Source of the DNA: Euzebyales bacterium
Lineage (GTDB): Bacteria > Actinomycetota > Nitriliruptoria > Euzebyales > JAHELV01
NCBI GenBank assembly: GCA_036374135.1
Contig: DASUUK010000102.1
Span: 1 to 40,959 of the forward strand
Direction of reading: 5' to 3'
Length of the DNA: 40,959 nt
The notes under the pieces are model-generated. The model saw only the letters and a program-made list of their open reading frames with translations, had not been told where the DNA came from and did no database searches. Shown one piece after another: positions 15,150 through 40,766 of the stretch. Position numbers and translations under genes: made by a program. The number at the start of each line of letters is the position of its first letter. Within the stretch, counting starts at the first letter, position 1.

Positions 15150-15929
15150 TCAGCGGACGTCGGCACCCATCGCGTGCGCGCCGCCGTCGGCGTGGACGAT
15201 CTCACCCGTGACGACCGGCGTCCAGTCGCTGAGCAGCGCGCACACGACGCGCGCGACCGGTTCGGGATCGCCCGTGTCCCAGCCCAGCGGCGCGCGCTTC
15301 TGCCACACCTGCTCGTAGGTGGAGAACCCGGCGATCGAGCGTGCGGCGATGGTCCTGAGCGGTCCGGCGGCGACGAGGTTCACGCGTGTCCCCTGCGCAC
15401 CGAGGTCGCGCGCCAGGTACCGGCAGCACGACTCGAGTCCCGCCTTGGCGACGCCCATCCAGTCGTACGACGGCCACGCGACGGCCGCGTCGAAGTCCAG
15501 ACCGACGATCGCACCCCCGCCACCGGCCGCGAGCAGCGGCGCGAACGCCCGACCGAGCGCCGCGAGCGAGTAGGTCGACACGTGCACCGCCGTGGCGACG
15601 TCCTCCCACGGCGTCTGGAGGAACTGCCCGCCGATCGCGCTGTCGGGCGCGAAGCCGATCGCGTGCACCACGCCGTCGACGCCGCCCCACCGCTCGTCGA
15701 GCGTCGCGCGCACGCGGTCGAGGTGCGTCTCGTCGGTGACGTCGAGCTCGAGCACGTCGACCGCCGCCTCGAGCCGGCCGGCGATCCGCTCGGTGATGCG
15801 CATGCCACGCCCGAAGCCGGTCAGGACGATGTCAGCCCCCTGCTGCTGCGCGAGCCGGGCGACGTGGAAGGCGATCGACGCGTCGTTGAGCACGCCGGTG
15901 ATCACCAGGCGTTTGTCGGCCAGCAGCAC
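15150..15929 (-). CDS. fabI: Enoyl-ACP reductase, InhA type
   Basis: The 259-residue SDR enzyme performs the last step of each fatty-acid elongation cycle, reducing trans-2-enoyl-ACP with NADH. It carries the InhA-like catalytic set Phe146-Tyr155-Lys162 in GLDFDAAVAWPSYDWMGVAK, exactly 3 residues offset from InhA Phe149/Tyr158/Lys165. The cofactor loop is VITGVLNDASIAFHVARLAQ and the C-terminus has VTGEIVHADGGAHAMG. It starts at GTG 15929 with GAGAGGA upstream. It follows accD by 25 bases in the operon and should be the target of triclosan- or isoniazid-adduct-type inhibitors by homology. Confidence 0.95.
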   Translation of the reverse strand: MLLADKRLVITGVLNDASIAFHVARLAQQQGADIVLTGFGRGMRITERIAGRLEAAVDVLELDVTDETHLDRVRATLDERWGGVDGVVHAIGFAPDSAIGGQFLQTPWEDVATAVHVSTYSLAALGRAFAPLLAAGGGGAIVGLDFDAAVAWPSYDWMGVAKAGLESCCRYLARDLGAQGTRVNLVAAGPLRTIAARSIAGFSTYEQVWQKRAPLGWDTGDPEPVARVVCALLSDWTPVVTGEIVHADGGAHAMGADVR

Positions 15930-15954
15930 GGTCGGGTCCTCTCGGTGGTGTGGT

Positions 15955-17394
15955 CTACTGCGGCAGGTTGTCGTGACGGTAGCCGGGCCGCACCGAGCGC
16001 TCCAGGGCGCGCAGTGCCGCCGCGACGCGGGCGCGGCTGGCGGCAGGGTCGATGACCTCGTCGACGCTCAGGCGCTCAGCGGGCACGTGGGGGTCCATCG
16101 CCTCGGCGCGGTAATGACCGATCAGCTCCGGCCGGCGATCGGGCTCCGCCGCGAGCTCGCGGCGGTAGATGACGTCGATCGCGCCCTCGGCACCCATCAC
16201 GGCGATCTCGGCGCCGGGCCAGCTGAAGACGGCGTCGGCACCGAGCGACTTGGAGTTCATGACGATGTAGGCGCCACCGAACGCCTTGCGCAGGATGACG
16301 GTCACCCGCGGCACCGTCGCCTCCGCGAAGGCGTAGAGCAGCTTCGCACCCTTGCGGATGATGCCGCCCGCCTCCTGACCGGTGCCAGGCAGGAAGCCGG
16401 GCACGTCGACCAGCGTCACCAGCGGGATCCCGAACGCGTCGCACAACCGCACGAACCGCGCCGCCTTCTCGCTGGCCTCGATGTCCAGACATCCCGCGAG
16501 CACCAGCGGCTGGTTGGCGACGACGCCGACCGACCGGCCGTCGACGCGCGCGAAGCCGACCACCACGTTCTCGGCGAACTGCTCGTGAAGCTCGAAGAAC
16601 GAGCCGCCGTCCACGATCCCGCGGATGACGCGGCGGACGTCATAGGGCTCGCGGTGGTCGTCGGGGACCTGCGGCATCGGCTCGGGTTCGACCGGTACCT
16701 CGTGCGGCGGCAGGTCGTGGCACGAGCTGGGCAGGTACCCGAGCACGCGCCGCGTCAGGTCCAGTGCGTGCGCCGCGTCGTCGGCAACGAGGTGCGCGAC
16801 GCCCGAGGTCCGCGCGTGCAGTTCGGCGCCGCCCAGATCCGACAGCGACACGTCCTCGAACGTCACCGCGCGCACCACCCGCGGACCCGTGACGAACATG
16901 TGCGCCTTGTCGCGCTGCATGATGACCACGTCGGTCAGCGCGGGCGAGTACACCGCTCCGCCTGCGCACGGACCCATCACCACGCTGATCTGCGGCACCC
17001 GCCCACTGAGCGCGACGTTGCGGTAGAAGATCGAGCCGTAGCCGTCGAGCGCGGCGACGCCCTCCTGGATGCGCGCGCCGCCGGAGTCCAGGAGACCGAT
17101 CACCGGGCAGCGCACCCGCGCCGCACGATCCAGCCCCGCGGCGATCTTGGCGGCATGGACCTCTCCGAGCGAGCCGCCCAGTGCGGTCGGGTCCTGTGCG
17201 AACACCTCGACTGGCCGCCCGTGGATGCGCGCCGACCCCGTCACGACGCCGTCGCCGTCGGGCCGTTTGCGCTCCATGCCGAACGCCGTGACGCGGTGCC
17301 GCGCCTGGCTGCCCACCTCGGCGAAGCTGTCGAGGTCGACGAGCGCGGTGATGCGCGCCAACCGGTCGGCGCGCGGGTCGATGGTCTCGGTCAC
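15955..17394 (-). CDS. accD: Acyl-CoA carboxylase beta (carboxyltransferase) subunit, AccD6-like
   Basis: The 479-residue protein holds both carboxyltransferase halves. The N half has GVVTGSARIHGRPVEVFAQD, LLDSGGARIQEGVAALDGYG and MGPCAGGAVYSPALTD. The C half has VVGFARVDGRSVGVVANQP, LVTLVDVPGFLPGTGQEAGG, AYIVMNSKSLGADAVFSWPG and EIAVMGAEGAIDVIYRRE. These oxyanion-hole glycines carry carboxyl transfer from biotin to acetyl- or propionyl-CoA, making malonyl-CoA for the fatty-acid synthase. Its length and its place next to fabF match mycobacterial accD6. The biotin carboxylase subunit is not in this window. Confidence 0.93.
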   Translation of the reverse strand: MTETIDPRADRLARITALVDLDSFAEVGSQARHRVTAFGMERKRPDGDGVVTGSARIHGRPVEVFAQDPTALGGSLGEVHAAKIAAGLDRAARVRCPVIGLLDSGGARIQEGVAALDGYGSIFYRNVALSGRVPQISVVMGPCAGGAVYSPALTDVVIMQRDKAHMFVTGPRVVRAVTFEDVSLSDLGGAELHARTSGVAHLVADDAAHALDLTRRVLGYLPSSCHDLPPHEVPVEPEPMPQVPDDHREPYDVRRVIRGIVDGGSFFELHEQFAENVVVGFARVDGRSVGVVANQPLVLAGCLDIEASEKAARFVRLCDAFGIPLVTLVDVPGFLPGTGQEAGGIIRKGAKLLYAFAEATVPRVTVILRKAFGGAYIVMNSKSLGADAVFSWPGAEIAVMGAEGAIDVIYRRELAAEPDRRPELIGHYRAEAMDPHVPAERLSVDEVIDPAASRARVAAALRALERSVRPGYRHDNLPQ

Positions 17395-17406
17395 GCGTGC
17401 AGCGCC

Positions 17407-18630
17407 CTACGCGCCGGCGAGCACGACGACACCGTTCTGGCCGCCGAACCCGAACGAGTTCGACATGACGACGTCGACTGCGACCTCGCGAGGCTCGCCG
17501 TGGACGATGTCGAGGTCGACCTCGGGATCCTGCTTCTGGAGGTTCGCCGTCGGTGGGATCAGGCCGTGCTCCAGTGTCAGTGCGCCGAAGGCCGCCTCGA
17601 TCGCCCCGGCCGCGCCCAGCGAGTGGCCGGTGACGCCCTTGGTCGACGTGACCGGCGGCGCGTCGTCGCCGAACATCCGGCGGATGACCCTCGACTCCGC
17701 GGCGTCGTTGAGCGGTGTCGACGTGCCGTGGGCGTTGATGTGCCCGACCTCGGCGGCGGTGACCCCCGCATCGCGCAGCGCCGAGGAGATCGCGAGGCCG
17801 ACGCCGACCCCCTCGGGGTCGGGCGCGGTGATGTGGTGCGCGTCAGCGCTGGCCCCGTAGCCGAGCAGCCGGGCACGCACGGTCGCGCCGCGAGCCGCGG
17901 CGTCCTCGCCGCGTTCGAGGACCAGCACGCCCGACGCCTCCGCAGCGACGAAGCCGTCCCGGTCGGCGTCGAACGGCCGCGACGCGGCGGCCGGGTCGTC
18001 GACACGTGCCGACAGCGCATGCATCTGCCCGAACGCCGCGATCGACAATGGCGACAGCGCCGCCTCGGTGCCGCCGGTGATGACGACGTCACACGCGCGG
18101 GTGCGCAGCAGGTCGCGCGCGACGCCGATGGCGGTGGCGCCCGACGTGCACGCCGTGGCGGTCACCAGGTTCGGCCCGTTGGCGCCGAACTCGATCGCGA
18201 TGTGGCCGGCGACCATGTTCGGGATCATCATCGGGATCAGCAGGGGCGACACCCGTGTGGGACCTTTGTCGAGCATGATCTCGTGCTGCTGCTCCCAGAC
18301 CGGCGAGCCGCCCATGCCACAGCCCATGACGCAGCCGACGCGGGCGCCGTCCCATGTCTCGGGATCCAGCCCGGAGTCCTCGATCGCCTCACGGGCGGCG
18401 ACCAGGCCGAACTGGACGAAGCGGTCGAGCCGGCGTGCGGCCTTGCGGCCCAGCAGCGCGTTGCCGTCGAAGTCAGCGACCCGGCAGCTGATGTCGATCG
18501 GGATGCCGTGCAGGTTGGGGTCCTTGGCGGCGGCGGACCGCCCGCTGAGGACCCCGGCCCACGCCGTGTCGACACCGATCCCCGCCGGGGTGACCAGGCC
18601 GAGACCGGTGATCGCGATGTCGGTCGTCAT
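17407..18630 (-). CDS. fabF: 3-oxoacyl-ACP synthase II (KAS II)
   Basis: The 407-residue condensing enzyme extends acyl-ACP with malonyl-ACP. The catalytic triad is Cys161 (TATACTSGATAIG), His301 (HINAHGTSTPLND) and His336 (STKGVTGHSLGAAG), and the C-terminal glycine loop SNSFGFGGQNG is present. The ATG at 18630 gives the standard start MTTDIAITGLGLVTPAGIG; the open frame further upstream to 18774 overlaps the ACP gene and is non-coding. It lies 58 bases downstream of acpP and 12 bases upstream of accD, and resembles mycobacterial KasA. Confidence 0.95.
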   Translation of the reverse strand: MTTDIAITGLGLVTPAGIGVDTAWAGVLSGRSAAAKDPNLHGIPIDISCRVADFDGNALLGRKAARRLDRFVQFGLVAAREAIEDSGLDPETWDGARVGCVMGCGMGGSPVWEQQHEIMLDKGPTRVSPLLIPMMIPNMVAGHIAIEFGANGPNLVTATACTSGATAIGVARDLLRTRACDVVITGGTEAALSPLSIAAFGQMHALSARVDDPAAASRPFDADRDGFVAAEASGVLVLERGEDAAARGATVRARLLGYGASADAHHITAPDPEGVGVGLAISSALRDAGVTAAEVGHINAHGTSTPLNDAAESRVIRRMFGDDAPPVTSTKGVTGHSLGAAGAIEAAFGALTLEHGLIPPTANLQKQDPEVDLDIVHGEPREVAVDVVMSNSFGFGGQNGVVVLAGA

Positions 18631-18688
18631 GTCACGTGCCCTACTGCCGCGATGCGGGCCGCGGTCCGGCCCACGGTGGTCAACGTCG

Positions 18689-18940
18689 TCAAGCGCGCTC
18701 GACGGTGGCGCCCTTCTCCTCGAGCAGCTTGACCGTGTCGTCGAGGGTGTCGAGCTGCTCGGCCTCCTCGTCACTGATCCGCACGCCCATCTCCTCCTCG
18801 GCGGCGAGCGCGAACTCGACGAGGTCGAGCGAGTCGAGATCGAGGTCGGCGAACGTCGCCTCGGGCGAGACCTCCTCCTCGGAGACCCCGAACTTCTCGA
18901 CGAGGAGTTCCTTGACCTTGTCGTACACAGCGCTGCTCAT
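18689..18940 (-). CDS. acpP: Acyl carrier protein
   Basis: The 83-residue acidic four-helix protein carries growing acyl chains on a 4'-phosphopantetheine arm attached to Ser37 in the DLDLDSLDLVEFALAAEEEM motif. Its length and low-pI composition are normal, with a slightly extended C-terminus (KGATVERA). The ATG at 18940 lies 76 bases after the fabH stop and fabF follows 58 bases later, so it belongs to the same transcript. The conserved DSL motif leaves no doubt about the family. Confidence 0.96.
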   Translation of the reverse strand: MSSAVYDKVKELLVEKFGVSEEEVSPEATFADLDLDSLDLVEFALAAEEEMGVRISDEEAEQLDTLDDTVKLLEEKGATVERA

Positions 18941-33284: not shown

Positions 33285-33560
33285 CTTTCCCGGCGGCGTG
33301 CTGTACACCGCCGCCGAGAGCGGTCGGGCGACGCGCGCGATCCCTGGACGCTCGAGCGCATTGACGTACCGCTCGTCGGCCACCCCGGCGTGGCCGACTT
33401 CCGCTTCGACCGCAGCGGGCGGATCGTCACCACGACCAGCACCGAGGTGCCCATCTGGGACCGCGCGAGTGGGAGCGCGCCGCCTGTGCGACGGCCGGTC
33501 GCAACCTCACGCCCGAGGAGTGGCAGACCCACCACCGGCCGACATGGCCCACCGGCCCAC
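33285..33560 (+). pseudogene. Decayed C-terminal piece of a WD40 signalling protein (relic A)
   Basis: The frame at 33339-33469 reads a WD40 blade: DPWTLERIDVPLVGHPGVAD and FRFDRSGRIVTTTSTEVPIW. A frame change near 33470 then gives WERAACATAGRNLTPEEWQT. This ending matches the C-terminus of the large intact protein at 35811-40766 (HACAVAGRNLTQDEWNE). The rest of that protein is absent here. Upstream bases 33101-33284 and downstream bases 33561-33724 hold no gene I can support. Confidence 0.6.
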
Positions 33561-33724: not shown

Positions 33725-33865
33725 TCCCGGGACGTCGTCTACAGCCCCCGACGGCACCCGCGTCGCGGGCTGGACGACTTCGCCTGCGACGTCGCCGCCC
33801 GCAACCTCACACAGGCCGAGTTGCGCGACACGTTCGGCGACCGTCCGTACCGCAGGACCTGCTGA
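33725..33865 (+). pseudogene. Second decayed C-terminal piece of a WD40 signalling protein (relic B)
   Basis: A broken stretch encodes VVYSPDGTRVAG (WD40 style, interrupted at a run of C) and then, in the frame 33770-33865, LDDFACDVAARNLTQAELRD and TFGDRPYRRTC followed by TGA. This is the same ending as the intact protein at 40766 (DRPYERTC) and relic A. Two relics within 600 bases imply repeated loss of related genes in this spot. Confidence 0.65.
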
Positions 33866-33937
33866 GCGGGCGGCTGCGGCGTCGCGGCCGTGCACGGCAA
33901 CCCACCGCGCAGGGACGGGATGCCGAGCGGACGTCGT

Positions 33938-35810: not shown

Positions 35811-38800
35811 ATGAGGACCCGGGGCGCGACTGTCGATGGCACGCTCGCGTTCTGCGTGCTCGGGCCGCTCGAGATCCGGCGGGGCGCCGGTGTGCTCCAG
35901 TTGCCCGGCCCGAGGGAACGAGCGCTCCTGGCACTGCTCCTGACCGCGCCCGGTCGGGTGGTCCCTGTGTCGGCGATCGTGTCGGGGATCTGGGGTGATG
36001 AAGCGCCCGATCACGCCGAGAAGACAGTGCAGTCGTACGTCTCCCGATTGCGTCGCGCCCTTCGGAAGGGCGACGACGCGTCGGTCGTCCTCACCCGTAG
36101 TCCCGGGTATGTTGCCGCGGTCGATTCCGACCAGGTGGACGCGGAGCGGTTCCGCATCCTGGCCGCCGACGGTCGACGCGATCTCGTGGCCGGACGCCCC
36201 GGCGCTGCGGCGGCCGGGTTGCGGGATGCGCTGGGGTTGTGGCGGGGCGAGGCGTACGCCGAGTTCGATGCACCGTTCGCCGTCGCCGAACGAGCGTCGC
36301 TGGAGGAGCTGCGGCTGGCTGCGCTCGAGGACCGGATCGCGGCCGACCTCGCGCTCGGTGCCGGGCCGGAACTCGTCGGAGAGCTCGAAACCCTCGTCAG
36401 CCGCCATCCCTGGCGGGAACGGCTCTGGGCGCAACTGATGACCGCGCTCTACCGGTCGGGGCGTCAAGCGGACGCGCTGGCCGCCTTCCAGCGAGCACGG
36501 ACGTCGCTGATCGACGAGCTGGGCATCGAGCCGGGAAGGGAGCTTCGCGCGGTCGAGGCGTTGGTGCTCGCACAGGACGAGCAGCTGCTGGTCCGCGACC
36601 CGGCACTGGCTGCGCTCCCACCAGCGCTCACAATCGCCGGGCCGCTTCTCGTCGGCCGCGAGCGTGAGCTCGACCGGTTGAGGGACGCCTACGACCGAGC
36701 GGCGACAGGGTCGGTGCAACGCGTGCTGCTCAGCGGCCCGCACGGCATCGGCAAGACCCGCCTTCTGGCGGAGCTGGCGCGGGAAGCACAGGCACGGGGC
36801 GCGCTGGTCCTCTACGGCACGAGCGGCGCAGCGCCGCGTCCGGACAGTGGACCGGTCGTCGTCCTGCTCGACGATCTGCAGCGGGCGCAGGCAGCGGAGC
36901 TGGCCGCACTCGCAACGTTCGTCGTCGCTGCCCAGCCGCCGCTGCTGGTCGTTGGCGCCTGCGTCACGGACCGCCCCGGCGCGCAGCCGCCGCCGGCGGT
37001 GTCGAGGGTGTTCCTCGATCGTCTCGAGGTTCCACCACTTCGGCCACCAGCGGTCGCTGAGATCGTCGCTTTGTATGTCCCGACCGATGCCGTCGAGGAC
37101 GGTGTCGCGGCCGTGGCCGAGACGTCGGGCATTCCCTTGCAGGTGCACGCGGCCGCCAGCCGGTACGGCGAGCGGCTGGCGACCGCACAGGTCGAGGAGG
37201 CGGCTGCGGGCATCTCCGAACCGCGACGCCGCCTCTCGGAGTCGCGCGCACGCGTCACCGAGGGAGTGCTCGACCTGCAGCGCATCCGTGTACTGCGGGA
37301 TGCACTCGCACCCGCTCAGCCGCCGCGGGTGGTGTGCCCGTACAAGGGGCTCGCGTTCTTCGACGTCGAGGACACGTCGTACTTCTTCGGCCGCGAACGT
37401 CTCGTCGCTCAGCTCGTTGCCCGCCTGGTGGATGCCCACCTCCTTGCGGTGGTCGGTGCGTCCGGCAGCGGCAAGTCGTCTGTCGTTCGCGCGGGGCTTG
37501 TCGCCGCGATCCGCACCGGCACGCTGCCTGGGAGCGACCGCTGGCGCACGGTCGTGACCTCGCCGACGCAGCCGCCGCCTGCGCTGCCAGACCGCGACGA
37601 CACGCGAACGCTGCTTGTCGCGGATCAGTTCGAGGAGCTGTTCACCGCGCAATCGCCCTCCCAGCAGAAGAACTACGCAGCGTGGCTCGCCAGCGCGGCG
37701 GCCCGGACAGACGTGACCGCCGTCGTCGTGGTGCGGTCGGATTACTACCCGCAGGTCGCCGCCCTTCCTGGTGTCTCCGAGTTTCTGACCGCCAACACGG
37801 TGCTCGTCGGTCACATGGCACGCGACGAACTGCTGGAGGCGATCCTGCTACCCGCCGGCGCGGCGGGTCTGGACCTCGAGGAAGGCCTGGCCGAGACCAT
37901 CGCGAGCGACGTGGCCGGCGAACCAGGCGGACTGCCGCTGATGTCCACCGCCCTGCTGTCGCTGTGGGAGCAGCGTGACGGTCGCAGGATGTCGCTCGCT
38001 GCCTACCACGCCATGGGTGGCGTGCGCACTGCCGTTGCACGCCTGGCCGAGGCCGCCTACGGACAGCTCACACCCGACCAGCGGTCGGTCGCGCGGCGGA
38101 CGCTGCTGCGTCTGGCTGAAACCGACGAGGCCGGCGAACCGGTTCGACGTCGCGTGCCGATCGCGGAAGTCGCACCGGACGGCGATGCCAACGGCCGCGC
38201 AGTGCTCGACACGCTGGCAGCACGACGGTTGCTGACAGTCTCGGAGACGCACGCTGAGGTCGCGCACGAGGCGCTGCTGCGCGAGTGGCCGCGGCTGCGG
38301 GGATGGCTGAACGAGGACATGACCGGCCGACGGCTGCGCAGGCACCTCGCCCCTGCAACGCGCGACTGGCTGGCCGGCGGCCGGGATCCGAGTGAGCTGT
38401 CTCGCGGACCACGGCTGACCGCGGCACTGGAGTGGCAGCGGGACCACTCCGACGACCTGACCCAGGTCGAGCACGACTTCCTCCATGCGAGCCACCGGGC
38501 GGCAGAGGCCGGGGCCCTGCGGCGCCGCCGGTCGATCAGACGGCTTCGTGGTCTGGCGATCGGCCTGGCCAGCGTGCTGGTGCTCGCCGTGGTCGCCAGT
38601 CTGATCGCAGTCGACCAGCGCAACGATGCTGCCCGAGCCTCGTTCGAGGCGGACGTGCGCGCGCTGCAGGCCATGGCGCTGGACGAGACCCGCTGGGACC
38701 GGGCGCTGCTGTACGCCGCGCAGGCGCAGCGGTTCGAGGGGTCGGAGGAGTCGCGCGCGGCGCTGCTGCAGACCGTGCAGCGCGGCCCGGAGGCGACGGC

Positions 38801-40766
38801 GGTCTACAGCGCGGACAAACCGCTGCACTCGCTTGCGGTGAGCCCGGACGGCACAAGGCTGGCTGCGAGCGGCATCAACGGCACGGTGTACGTCTGGGAC
38901 GCCAGGACGGGGCAAACCATCCAATCGGTGCGCGACGTCACCGGCCTCATGGCGACGAACCTTGATTTCAGTCCCGACGGCCGCTACGTCGCTGCGGTGG
39001 GCGTCCCGCTTCCGCTCCATGCCGAGAAGGACTACACCTTCCAGGTCGTGATCGTCGACCTCGAGCAGACACCGCCCTCCGTGTGGTACCTGCGGAGCGG
39101 CGAGGTCCACGCAGCCGCGTTCGCGGCCGACGGACGCACGATCGTGACGTTGGGCGACGGTGGTCGCGTCCGCCATGTCGATGCGGAGACCGGTGCCGTG
39201 GAGCGGGCCTTCACCCTTGATATGGAGGGATCGCTGTACGGAACCCTCCGCTGGACCGCGGACCGTCGGTACATGGTCGCGTTTGACCCCGACATCGGTC
39301 AGTTACGAGCCTGGGAGCTCGAGTCCGGCCGGCGGATGTGGTCGACGGACGAGCCCGGCATCTCCGCTGCAACGATCAGCCCAAACGGCGCGCAACTGGT
39401 CATCGGTTACGGGGACGGCCGGATCGAGCAGGTCGACCTCGCCCACGACGGAGCACGCACGCCGGTGAGTACGGTCCTCACCGAGGGACTGATCGACCTC
39501 AGGTGGTCCCCCGACGGCTCCACGTTCGCGGGAGTCACCCAGGAGCGGACCGTCGTCGTCTGGGATGCTCGCACCCTTGAGGTGACGTCCGTCCTCCGCG
39601 GCCACTGGGGGAACCTGTCGCAGGCGGCCTACTCCCCCGATAGCGGGACCATGTACGCAGCCGGGTTCGATCGGTCTGTGGTGGCGTGGGATCTCACCGG
39701 TACCAAAGGGATTGTGAGTTCTGTCGGCGCGAAGCCCCGTGCCGATGTGCACACGATCGGACTGGCGGCCGACGGGTCCGTGGCGGCCGCGGCATACGCG
39801 GACGGTCGCGTCGACGTAGTCGACATCGCCAGGAACGAAAAGGTCCAGGTGACTGTCGCCGCCGTCCCCGATGTCCTCCGCGTCGACCGTCTCGGGCGGT
39901 CCGTGCTCATCCATGTTCCGCCGCCCCGGCCTGATCCGGTGACGCGCCCTCCCGTGACTGTGCACACGCTCGATGTGCGGCGGGGCGAGCTGCTGCCGTA
40001 TGCGATAGAGCTCGACTTTCTGACGGCGTGGGATGCGGTCACCACATGGGATCACAGGGCCATCCTCGCGGTGGGACAGCAGCAGGTCGGTCTGTACGAC
40101 CTGGCTACGGGTGCCCCCGAGTCCGCCGCGCTGTTCGAAGCGTCCGACGCCGTGGCCGCAATTGGCGCACACCCTGGAGGTCGTCTTGCCGCGTTGAGCG
40201 TTGAGGGCGGCACCATTGAGATCATCGACTCGGCCAACGGCGAGCGCATCCACACCCTGGACCCCGGCGACAGATTTCGGGAGCGTCTGCCCTTCTCTCA
40301 AGTCACCTTCTCACCCGACGGCCGGTGGCTCGCTGGCGCGACCAACAGCGGCCAGGTCATCGTCTGGGACACGCGGGCATGGCGGCGTCACAACACGTTC
40401 GACGCGTCGGCCGGCTTCGCGCTCGCCTCACTCGTGTTCAGCTCGGACTCGGAGCTGCTGATAGCCGGCGGCGCAGGTACCGCCTCCATCTGGAGCCTCG
40501 GGGACCCAGCCGGTGCGGGTGTACGGCTGGACGTCGACGCCCAGCGGCCTGACGCCAACGTCCTCGTCGGCACCAAGGATGACGGCGATACCGTCGTGAC
40601 CTTCACTGAGGGCACCGGGGTGCGCGAGTGGAGGATCGCCCCCGACCGGCTGCTCGAGCACGCCTGTGCCGTCGCCGGCCGCAATCTCACGCAGGACGAG
40701 TGGAACGAGGTGTTGCCCGACCGGCCGTACGAACGCACCTGCAGTCAATGGGCAGATGGAACGTGA
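35811..40766 (+). CDS. Giant membrane-spanning regulator: winged helix, BTAD, two P-loop NTPase domains, WD40
   Basis: This 1651-residue protein combines six parts. They are an OmpR-type winged helix (about 12-105: QLPGPRERALLALLLTAPGR, KTVQSYVSRLRRALRKG); a BTAD helical domain (about 112-256: LWAQLMTALYRSGRQADALA); a first NTPase with P-loop SGPHGIGKTRLL (308-319) and Walker B VVVLLDD (349-355); an nSTAND1 NTPase that opens CPYKGLAFFDVEDTSYFFGR, with P-loop GASGSGKSS (549-557) and Walker B LLVADQFEEL (601-610); one membrane span (912-934) after a basic RRRRSIRRLR stretch; and WD40 blades (about 990-1620). It ends CAVAGRNLTQDEW and RPYERTC. The positive-inside rule puts the DNA-binding half in the cytoplasm and the WD40 part outside. 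Confidence 0.9.
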   Translation: MRTRGATVDGTLAFCVLGPLEIRRGAGVLQLPGPRERALLALLLTAPGRVVPVSAIVSGIWGDEAPDHAEKTVQSYVSRLRRALRKGDDASVVLTRSPGYVAAVDSDQVDAERFRILAADGRRDLVAGRPGAAAAGLRDALGLWRGEAYAEFDAPFAVAERASLEELRLAALEDRIAADLALGAGPELVGELETLVSRHPWRERLWAQLMTALYRSGRQADALAAFQRARTSLIDELGIEPGRELRAVEALVLAQDEQLLVRDPALAALPPALTIAGPLLVGRERELDRLRDAYDRAATGSVQRVLLSGPHGIGKTRLLAELAREAQARGALVLYGTSGAAPRPDSGPVVVLLDDLQRAQAAELAALATFVVAAQPPLLVVGACVTDRPGAQPPPAVSRVFLDRLEVPPLRPPAVAEIVALYVPTDAVEDGVAAVAETSGIPLQVHAAASRYGERLATAQVEEAAAGISEPRRRLSESRARVTEGVLDLQRIRVLRDALAPAQPPRVVCPYKGLAFFDVEDTSYFFGRERLVAQLVARLVDAHLLAVVGASGSGKSSVVRAGLVAAIRTGTLPGSDRWRTVVTSPTQPPPALPDRDDTRTLLVADQFEELFTAQSPSQQKNYAAWLASAAARTDVTAVVVVRSDYYPQVAALPGVSEFLTANTVLVGHMARDELLEAILLPAGAAGLDLEEGLAETIASDVAGEPGGLPLMSTALLSLWEQRDGRRMSLAAYHAMGGVRTAVARLAEAAYGQLTPDQRSVARRTLLRLAETDEAGEPVRRRVPIAEVAPDGDANGRAVLDTLAARRLLTVSETHAEVAHEALLREWPRLRGWLNEDMTGRRLRRHLAPATRDWLAGGRDPSELSRGPRLTAALEWQRDHSDDLTQVEHDFLHASHRAAEAGALRRRRSIRRLRGLAIGLASVLVLAVVASLIAVDQRNDAARASFEADVRALQAMALDETRWDRALLYAAQAQRFEGSEESRAALLQTVQRGPEATAVYSADKPLHSLAVSPDGTRLAASGINGTVYVWDARTGQTIQSVRDVTGLMATNLDFSPDGRYVAAVGVPLPLHAEKDYTFQVVIVDLEQTPPSVWYLRSGEVHAAAFAADGRTIVTLGDGGRVRHVDAETGAVERAFTLDMEGSLYGTLRWTADRRYMVAFDPDIGQLRAWELESGRRMWSTDEPGISAATISPNGAQLVIGYGDGRIEQVDLAHDGARTPVSTVLTEGLIDLRWSPDGSTFAGVTQERTVVVWDARTLEVTSVLRGHWGNLSQAAYSPDSGTMYAAGFDRSVVAWDLTGTKGIVSSVGAKPRADVHTIGLAADGSVAAAAYADGRVDVVDIARNEKVQVTVAAVPDVLRVDRLGRSVLIHVPPPRPDPVTRPPVTVHTLDVRRGELLPYAIELDFLTAWDAVTTWDHRAILAVGQQQVGLYDLATGAPESAALFEASDAVAAIGAHPGGRLAALSVEGGTIEIIDSANGERIHTLDPGDRFRERLPFSQVTFSPDGRWLAGATNSGQVIVWDTRAWRRHNTFDASAGFALASLVFSSDSELLIAGGAGTASIWSLGDPAGAGVRLDVDAQRPDANVLVGTKDDGDTVVTFTEGTGVREWRIAPDRLLEHACAVAGRNLTQDEWNEVLPDRPYERTCSQWADGT

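Follow-up and report, generated by a model that had tools for sequence, protein, structure and literature searches.

Can one protein read a signal outside the cell and switch on transcription inside it by way of two nucleotide-binding modules? The question is raised by an open reading frame at 35811-40766 on the forward strand of the window, the whole stretch of 40,959 nucleotides from a Euzebyales bacterium that was analysed; all features described below for this gene lie on that strand. The frame is intact and uninterrupted, encodes 1651 aa and matches its own genome with 100% identity. Its stop is 193 bp from the contig end, and the upstream side alone is visible. The open reading frame list and Pfam give the order wHTH-BTAD-NTPase1-nSTAND1-TM-WD40, with Pfam matches to Trans_reg_C (residues 34-101, E 2.5e-12), BTAD (109-252, 2e-44), AAA_16 (280-337, 6e-19), nSTAND1 (to residue 860, 2e-105) and WD40 (from residue 1003). 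The protein is not a chance fusion, since two colinear proteins in another genome, L175 and L176, share the identical domain order. A SARP head, recognized by Pfam as wHTH-BTAD, and a single predicted span are found in the same chain, as the first-pass annotation had claimed in describing a one-protein transmembrane regulator, and by prediction the N-terminus is inside and the C-terminus outside. The domain order, the one span, the charge asymmetry around it, the kept contact residues and the conserved P-loops are read directly from the sequence. Taken together the protein is probably, at roughly 0.6, a membrane-anchored, STAND-gated SARP transcription activator that combines the workings of AfsR and ToxR/CadC.

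The head starts with an OmpR-type winged-helix DNA-binding domain (residues about 12-105, 35844-36125) identified by Trans_reg_C and by matches to EmbR and AfsR. It is followed by a BTAD, the helical domain that contacts RNA polymerase (residues 109-252, 36135-36566), and an OmpR-type winged helix followed by a BTAD is the arrangement of a SARP; both Trans_reg_C and BTAD score above the Pfam cut-off. The best PDB sequence matches of the head are EmbR (2fez, E 2.7e-40) and AfsR (8hvr, E 5.7e-39). Contact residues reported in the cryo-EM study of AfsR (PMC10936776) were mapped onto the alignment with the PDB match. Four DNA contacts of AfsR, W74, P79, R92 and R94, are identical in the window protein (W61, P66, R79 and R81), and Q48, T88 and K95 are replaced by R35, S75 and R82. 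The residues that hold sigma region 4 and the alpha-CTD, R240, L243, D245, E246, L247 and L263, are all identical (R230, L233, D235, E236, L237 and L253), and E76/E77 correspond to D/E. The beta-flap contacts R59, T63, D71 and R173 are not kept and are A46, V50, S58 and S163 in the window protein. Mutation of R59, D71 or R173 lowers the activity of AfsR, whereas T63A does not (PMC10936776). T63 and D71 are conserved among Streptomyces SARPs; the four beta-flap contacts are not a family-defining set. Judged by its residues, the wHTH-BTAD head looks competent. The DNA upstream of the gene was also inspected for 11-bp repeats resembling SARP boxes, and the best score was matched by 11% of shuffles, so these repeats were discarded.

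Behind the head are two NTPases, a compact NTPase1 (residues 277-500, 36639-37310) and nSTAND1 (residues 509-905, 37335-38525). Both P-loops are real, GPHGIGKT at 309-316 in NTPase1 and GASGSGKS at 549-556 in nSTAND1, and each module also has a Walker B motif (about 349-357 in NTPase1; 601-609, DQFEE, in nSTAND1), which agrees with the earlier proposal of two NTPase modules. The nSTAND1 profile scores 354 bits against a cut-off of 27.1, and this score together with the Walker A and B motifs places the domain in the nSTAND1 clade. Structure prediction, run as a check, gave nSTAND1 an AAA+ fold with an AlphaFold pLDDT of about 95. The best fold match has a Z of 15.7 over 262 residues with an rmsd of 3.8; these VIA-align 2 matches for the 255-960 model cover nSTAND1 alone and not NTPase1. 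NTPase1 was modelled with pLDDT mostly below 50, probably because the alignment held no NTPase1 relatives. The NTPase1 stretch alone scores 70.8 bits against AAA_16 (cut-off 32.6, E 2.5e-19) and has a GxP-like segment, SGIPLQVH, at 439-446. Its Walker A and B motifs, aligned in L175-L179, are conserved in both BTAD-headed and cyclase-headed relatives, as in an AAA_16/STAND module.

Is NTPase1 a second switch? It is possible, if somewhat doubtful, that it survives only as a structural relic, or a spacer, from an AfsR-type NOD, leaving nSTAND1 alone to bind and turn over nucleotide. Very few residues separate Walker A from Walker B in NTPase1, and two relatives nested in the clade of the window protein, L182 and L183, manage without the module. 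The P-loop of L180 (GAPGMGRT) is degenerate, and in L176 the LDD of Walker B is replaced by LDY. However, six of the seven aligned proteins (the window protein and L175-L179) have an intact Walker A, and the GxP-like segment is kept in the alignment across BTAD and cyclase heads, which argues against the remnant reading.

The relatives that carry both NTPases came from 396 genomes drawn from the phylum, which were searched for proteins colinear over NTPase1 and nSTAND1; a single-protein scan of the contigs gave no relatives and an alignment-based scan did. Two have BTAD heads, L175 (1680 aa) and L176 (1939 aa). Four, L177 to L180, have cyclase heads, assigned by Pfam for L177 and L179 and by alignment for L178 and L180, and L180 is probably frame-broken. 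In the nSTAND1 tree the window protein falls in a clade with support of 100/99 together with L175-L179 and the pair L182/L183, in which BTAD is present and NTPase1 is absent. By sequence, then, the double-NTPase core is conserved, and proteins with a BTAD head and proteins with a cyclase head both occur in the clade. These data are most simply read as NTPase1 being confined to one clade and lost once, with two or more types of head joined to its core. The class III cyclase heads of L177, L178 and L179 imply a cyclic-nucleotide output of the same receptor. No conserved synteny was seen in the same-genus genomes.

One strong hydrophobic span is found at residues 915-935 (38553-38615), with a Kyte-Doolittle value of 2.75. 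It is assigned by hydropathy alone, and two milder peaks (means 1.90 and 1.95) lie inside the folded wHTH and NTPase1. In the AlphaFold model, residues 885-959 form one continuous helix (residues 631-705 of the 255-960 model). Directly before the span is the basic stretch RRRRSIRRLRG (residues 904-914, 38520-38552), predicted to be on the cytoplasmic side, and after it comes a stalk of three modelled helices (residues 936-991, 38616-38783). The 15 residues before the span are richer in K/R than those after it in 50 of 51 nSTAND1-TM-WD40 relatives, equal in one and poorer in none; the proteins are related, so the nominal p-value overstates their independence. A span is present in 51 of 55 WD40-bearing nSTAND1 proteins but in 4 of the 11 whose C-terminus is FGE or of another type. 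Solute-binding domains normally work outside the membrane, and five proteins have a Bmp/PnrA solute-binding domain after this span in place of WD40 (L057, L065 and L112 by Pfam; L195 and L197 by match to L057). The C-terminal sensor is not always outside, since the BTAD-nSTAND1-Bmp protein L088 (3535-6720, reverse strand), encoded in the same genome as the span-bearing L197, has no span.

It is improbable that the WD40 part is cytoplasmic, which would make 915-935 a membrane-surface or hairpin anchor, or a buried helix, and the protein an intracellular sensor like AfsR or Apaf-1. WD40 domains are usually intracellular, four WD40 relatives (L108, L126, L133 and L142) fall below the span cut-off, and L088 has a Bmp domain and no span. 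Proteins scored without a span can also have the C-terminal Cys pair. However, two of the four span-less WD40 relatives lie close to the cut-off (1.61 and 1.66), and such a placement would not account for the strong single hydrophobic core, its basic flank in 50 of 51 relatives, or the solute-binding domains at the same position in five proteins. The outside placement of the WD40 part, as predicted in the first-pass annotation, is well supported by these sequence comparisons. The five Bmp proteins also link a SARP head to a solute-binding domain and are possibly nucleoside-responsive regulators.

The WD40 region (residues 995-1608, 38793-40634) is recognized by Pfam and modelled by AlphaFold as about 14 blades behind the three stalk helices, with a pLDDT of 75.5 and a weak middle, and is read as a double propeller. 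Foldseek matches the model to 2ymu, 1nr0 and Apaf-1, the double propellers of AIP1 and Apaf-1 being among the hits. The protein ends in a tail (1617-1644) with the conserved clasp HACAVAGRNLT..EW...YERTC (40659-40742), which contains Cys 1619 and Cys 1644. Of the 51 TM-WD40 relatives, 46 have at least two Cys among their 80 C-terminal residues. The pair was considered as evidence of export and was rejected because relatives scored without a span (L108, L126 and L133) have it too.

The first-pass annotation had proposed that degraded kin nearby support diversifying selection. Two remnants of WD40 3' ends are indeed present on the forward strand of the window, a WD40 blade with a frameshifted C-terminal tail (REWERAACATAGRNLTPEEWQ) at about 33350-33540 and a C-terminal tail, DFACDVAARNLTQAELRDTFGDRPYRRTC*, at about 33735-33868, found by tblastn (58% to residues 1614-1644) and blastp. 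Fragments and frame-broken copies also occur in the same-genus genomes (L054, L055 and L064). These decayed copies reflect birth and death of copies and are no proof of diversifying selection. In two close pairs, both relatives of the window gene and not the gene itself, dN/dS is 0.10-0.27 (L182/L183) and 0.18-0.30 (L066/L067) in all domains, and the proposed selection is not supported. For L182/L183 the value is 0.27 in WD40 and 0.15 in nSTAND1, with lower synonymous divergence in WD40 there, and for L066/L067 it is 0.30 in both. In deeper comparisons WD40 retains 26-31% identity as against 39-53% for nSTAND1, and the pattern fits a looser sensor under purifying selection.

Nearly all head-bearing nSTAND1 relatives carry the span and WD40, and their heads vary. 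Pfam identifies SARP, HTH_31, Ser/Thr kinase, kinase with LuxR HTH, BTAD with kinase, cyclase, TIR, caspase, trypsin, CHAT and EAD1. The genome of the window protein itself encodes a TIR-nSTAND1-TM-WD40 protein (L062, 5984-10393, reverse strand, contig C46), the same chassis with a TIR head. In L104 (3995-9226) and L101 (4258-9852) a BTAD and a Ser/Thr kinase precede nSTAND1-TM and a C-terminal region, which brings transcription and phosphorylation outputs within one chain. There is an even chance that nSTAND1-TM-WD40/-Bmp proteins form a general class of bacterial surface NLR-like receptors, with a sensor outside, a STAND switch beneath the membrane and interchangeable outputs in the cytoplasm (SARP/HTH, kinase, cyclase, TIR, caspase or trypsin), to which the clade of the window protein adds a second NTPase that accepts transcriptional and cyclic-nucleotide heads.

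Does the window protein then belong to defence? nSTAND1 was defined among counter-invader systems (PMC8195603), related proteins have TIR, caspase, trypsin, CHAT and EAD1 heads, the TIR-headed one in the same genome, and degraded copies are frequent in the genus. The protein could be an NLR-like conflict receptor at the surface that turns on defence genes and not genes of metabolism or development, but this is unlikely. PADLOC gives only weak matches to MADS components (mad8, 22 bits; mad3, 14 bits), and these are limited to the P-loop; the upstream genes are unrelated. The PADLOC matches were not taken as a sign of membership in a catalogued defence system. Positive selection was unseen in the close relative pairs, and no defence genes are found among the identified upstream neighbours, the contig ending shortly downstream. 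By Pfam, these neighbours encode Lon protease, carboxyl transferase, ketoacyl synthase, M20 peptidase, GH65, HAD hydrolase, PhyH, PGA_cap, short-chain dehydrogenase and trypsin-PDZ protease, and none of them suggests a partner. A 1046-aa open reading frame (15592-18732, forward strand) has no Pfam match, lies opposite the carboxyl transferase and ketoacyl synthase genes and is probably not a gene.

For a membrane-anchored, STAND-gated SARP, the following mechanism may be proposed. The extracytoplasmic double propeller would meet a ligand or surface partner, and the resulting change would be relayed by the helical stalk and by the continuous helix 885-959, across the membrane, to the nSTAND1 NTPase. 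A nucleotide-dependent rearrangement of nSTAND1, probably with oligomerisation, would free the wHTH-BTAD head; the head would then engage repeats in the promoter and hold on to both sigma region 4 and the alpha-CTD. NTPase1, between the head and nSTAND1, could be a second nucleotide-binding, clamp or oligomerisation module. We infer ligand gating, autoinhibition and the role of NTPase1. In AfsR, the SARP head is inhibited by the NOD and TPR and is released when ATP binds (PMC10936776), a precedent for the inside half of the mechanism. ToxR/CadC are the precedent for a winged-helix regulator that operates from the membrane.

AfsR, MalT, Apaf-1, the NLRs and other STAND receptors have been studied as intracellular proteins. 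If the topology is right, an outside propeller drives a STAND ATPase across the membrane and switches transcription directly, and the same chassis delivers other outputs in relatives. Transmembrane gating of a STAND ATPase would then be directly testable in one protein, with a route to the signals to which many large, unannotated regulators of actinobacteria respond. A literature search of partial coverage found no study of such a protein and no experiments on any member.

How does the window protein compare with known systems? EmbR of Mycobacterium tuberculosis (2fez), the best PDB sequence match, shares the wHTH-BTAD head but ends in an FHA domain and has no NTPase, span or WD40. In Apaf-1 and NLR-type STAND receptors, too, a double WD40 propeller comes after a STAND ATPase; the likeness is at the level of fold only, and Apaf-1 is cytosolic and drives caspases. 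The nSTAND1 conflict-system proteins (PMC8195603) share the nSTAND1 core with a swappable N-terminal effector and C-terminal sensor; in contrast to them, the window protein has a transcription output and a sensor predicted to be outside, and an EAD adaptor was not found in it. ToxR/CadC-type regulators share an OmpR-type winged helix inside, a single span and an outside sensor in one protein. ToxR and CadC are not known to have an NTPase between the DNA-binding domain and the span. The main text of a survey of TTRs makes no mention of WD40 or BTAD (PMC10269533). AfsR of Streptomyces coelicolor (SARP-NOD-TPR) shares the wHTH-BTAD head, the STAND-type NTPase behind it and C-terminal sensor repeats. 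The window protein does not qualify as an AfsR orthologue, as the NCBIfam model NF053617 gives 178 bits over residues 6-352 only (cut-off 1430) and the C-terminus is not TPR. AfsR is not described as membrane-anchored, its single NOD is of a different type and its repeats are TPR, whereas the window protein has two NTPases, a membrane span and WD40.
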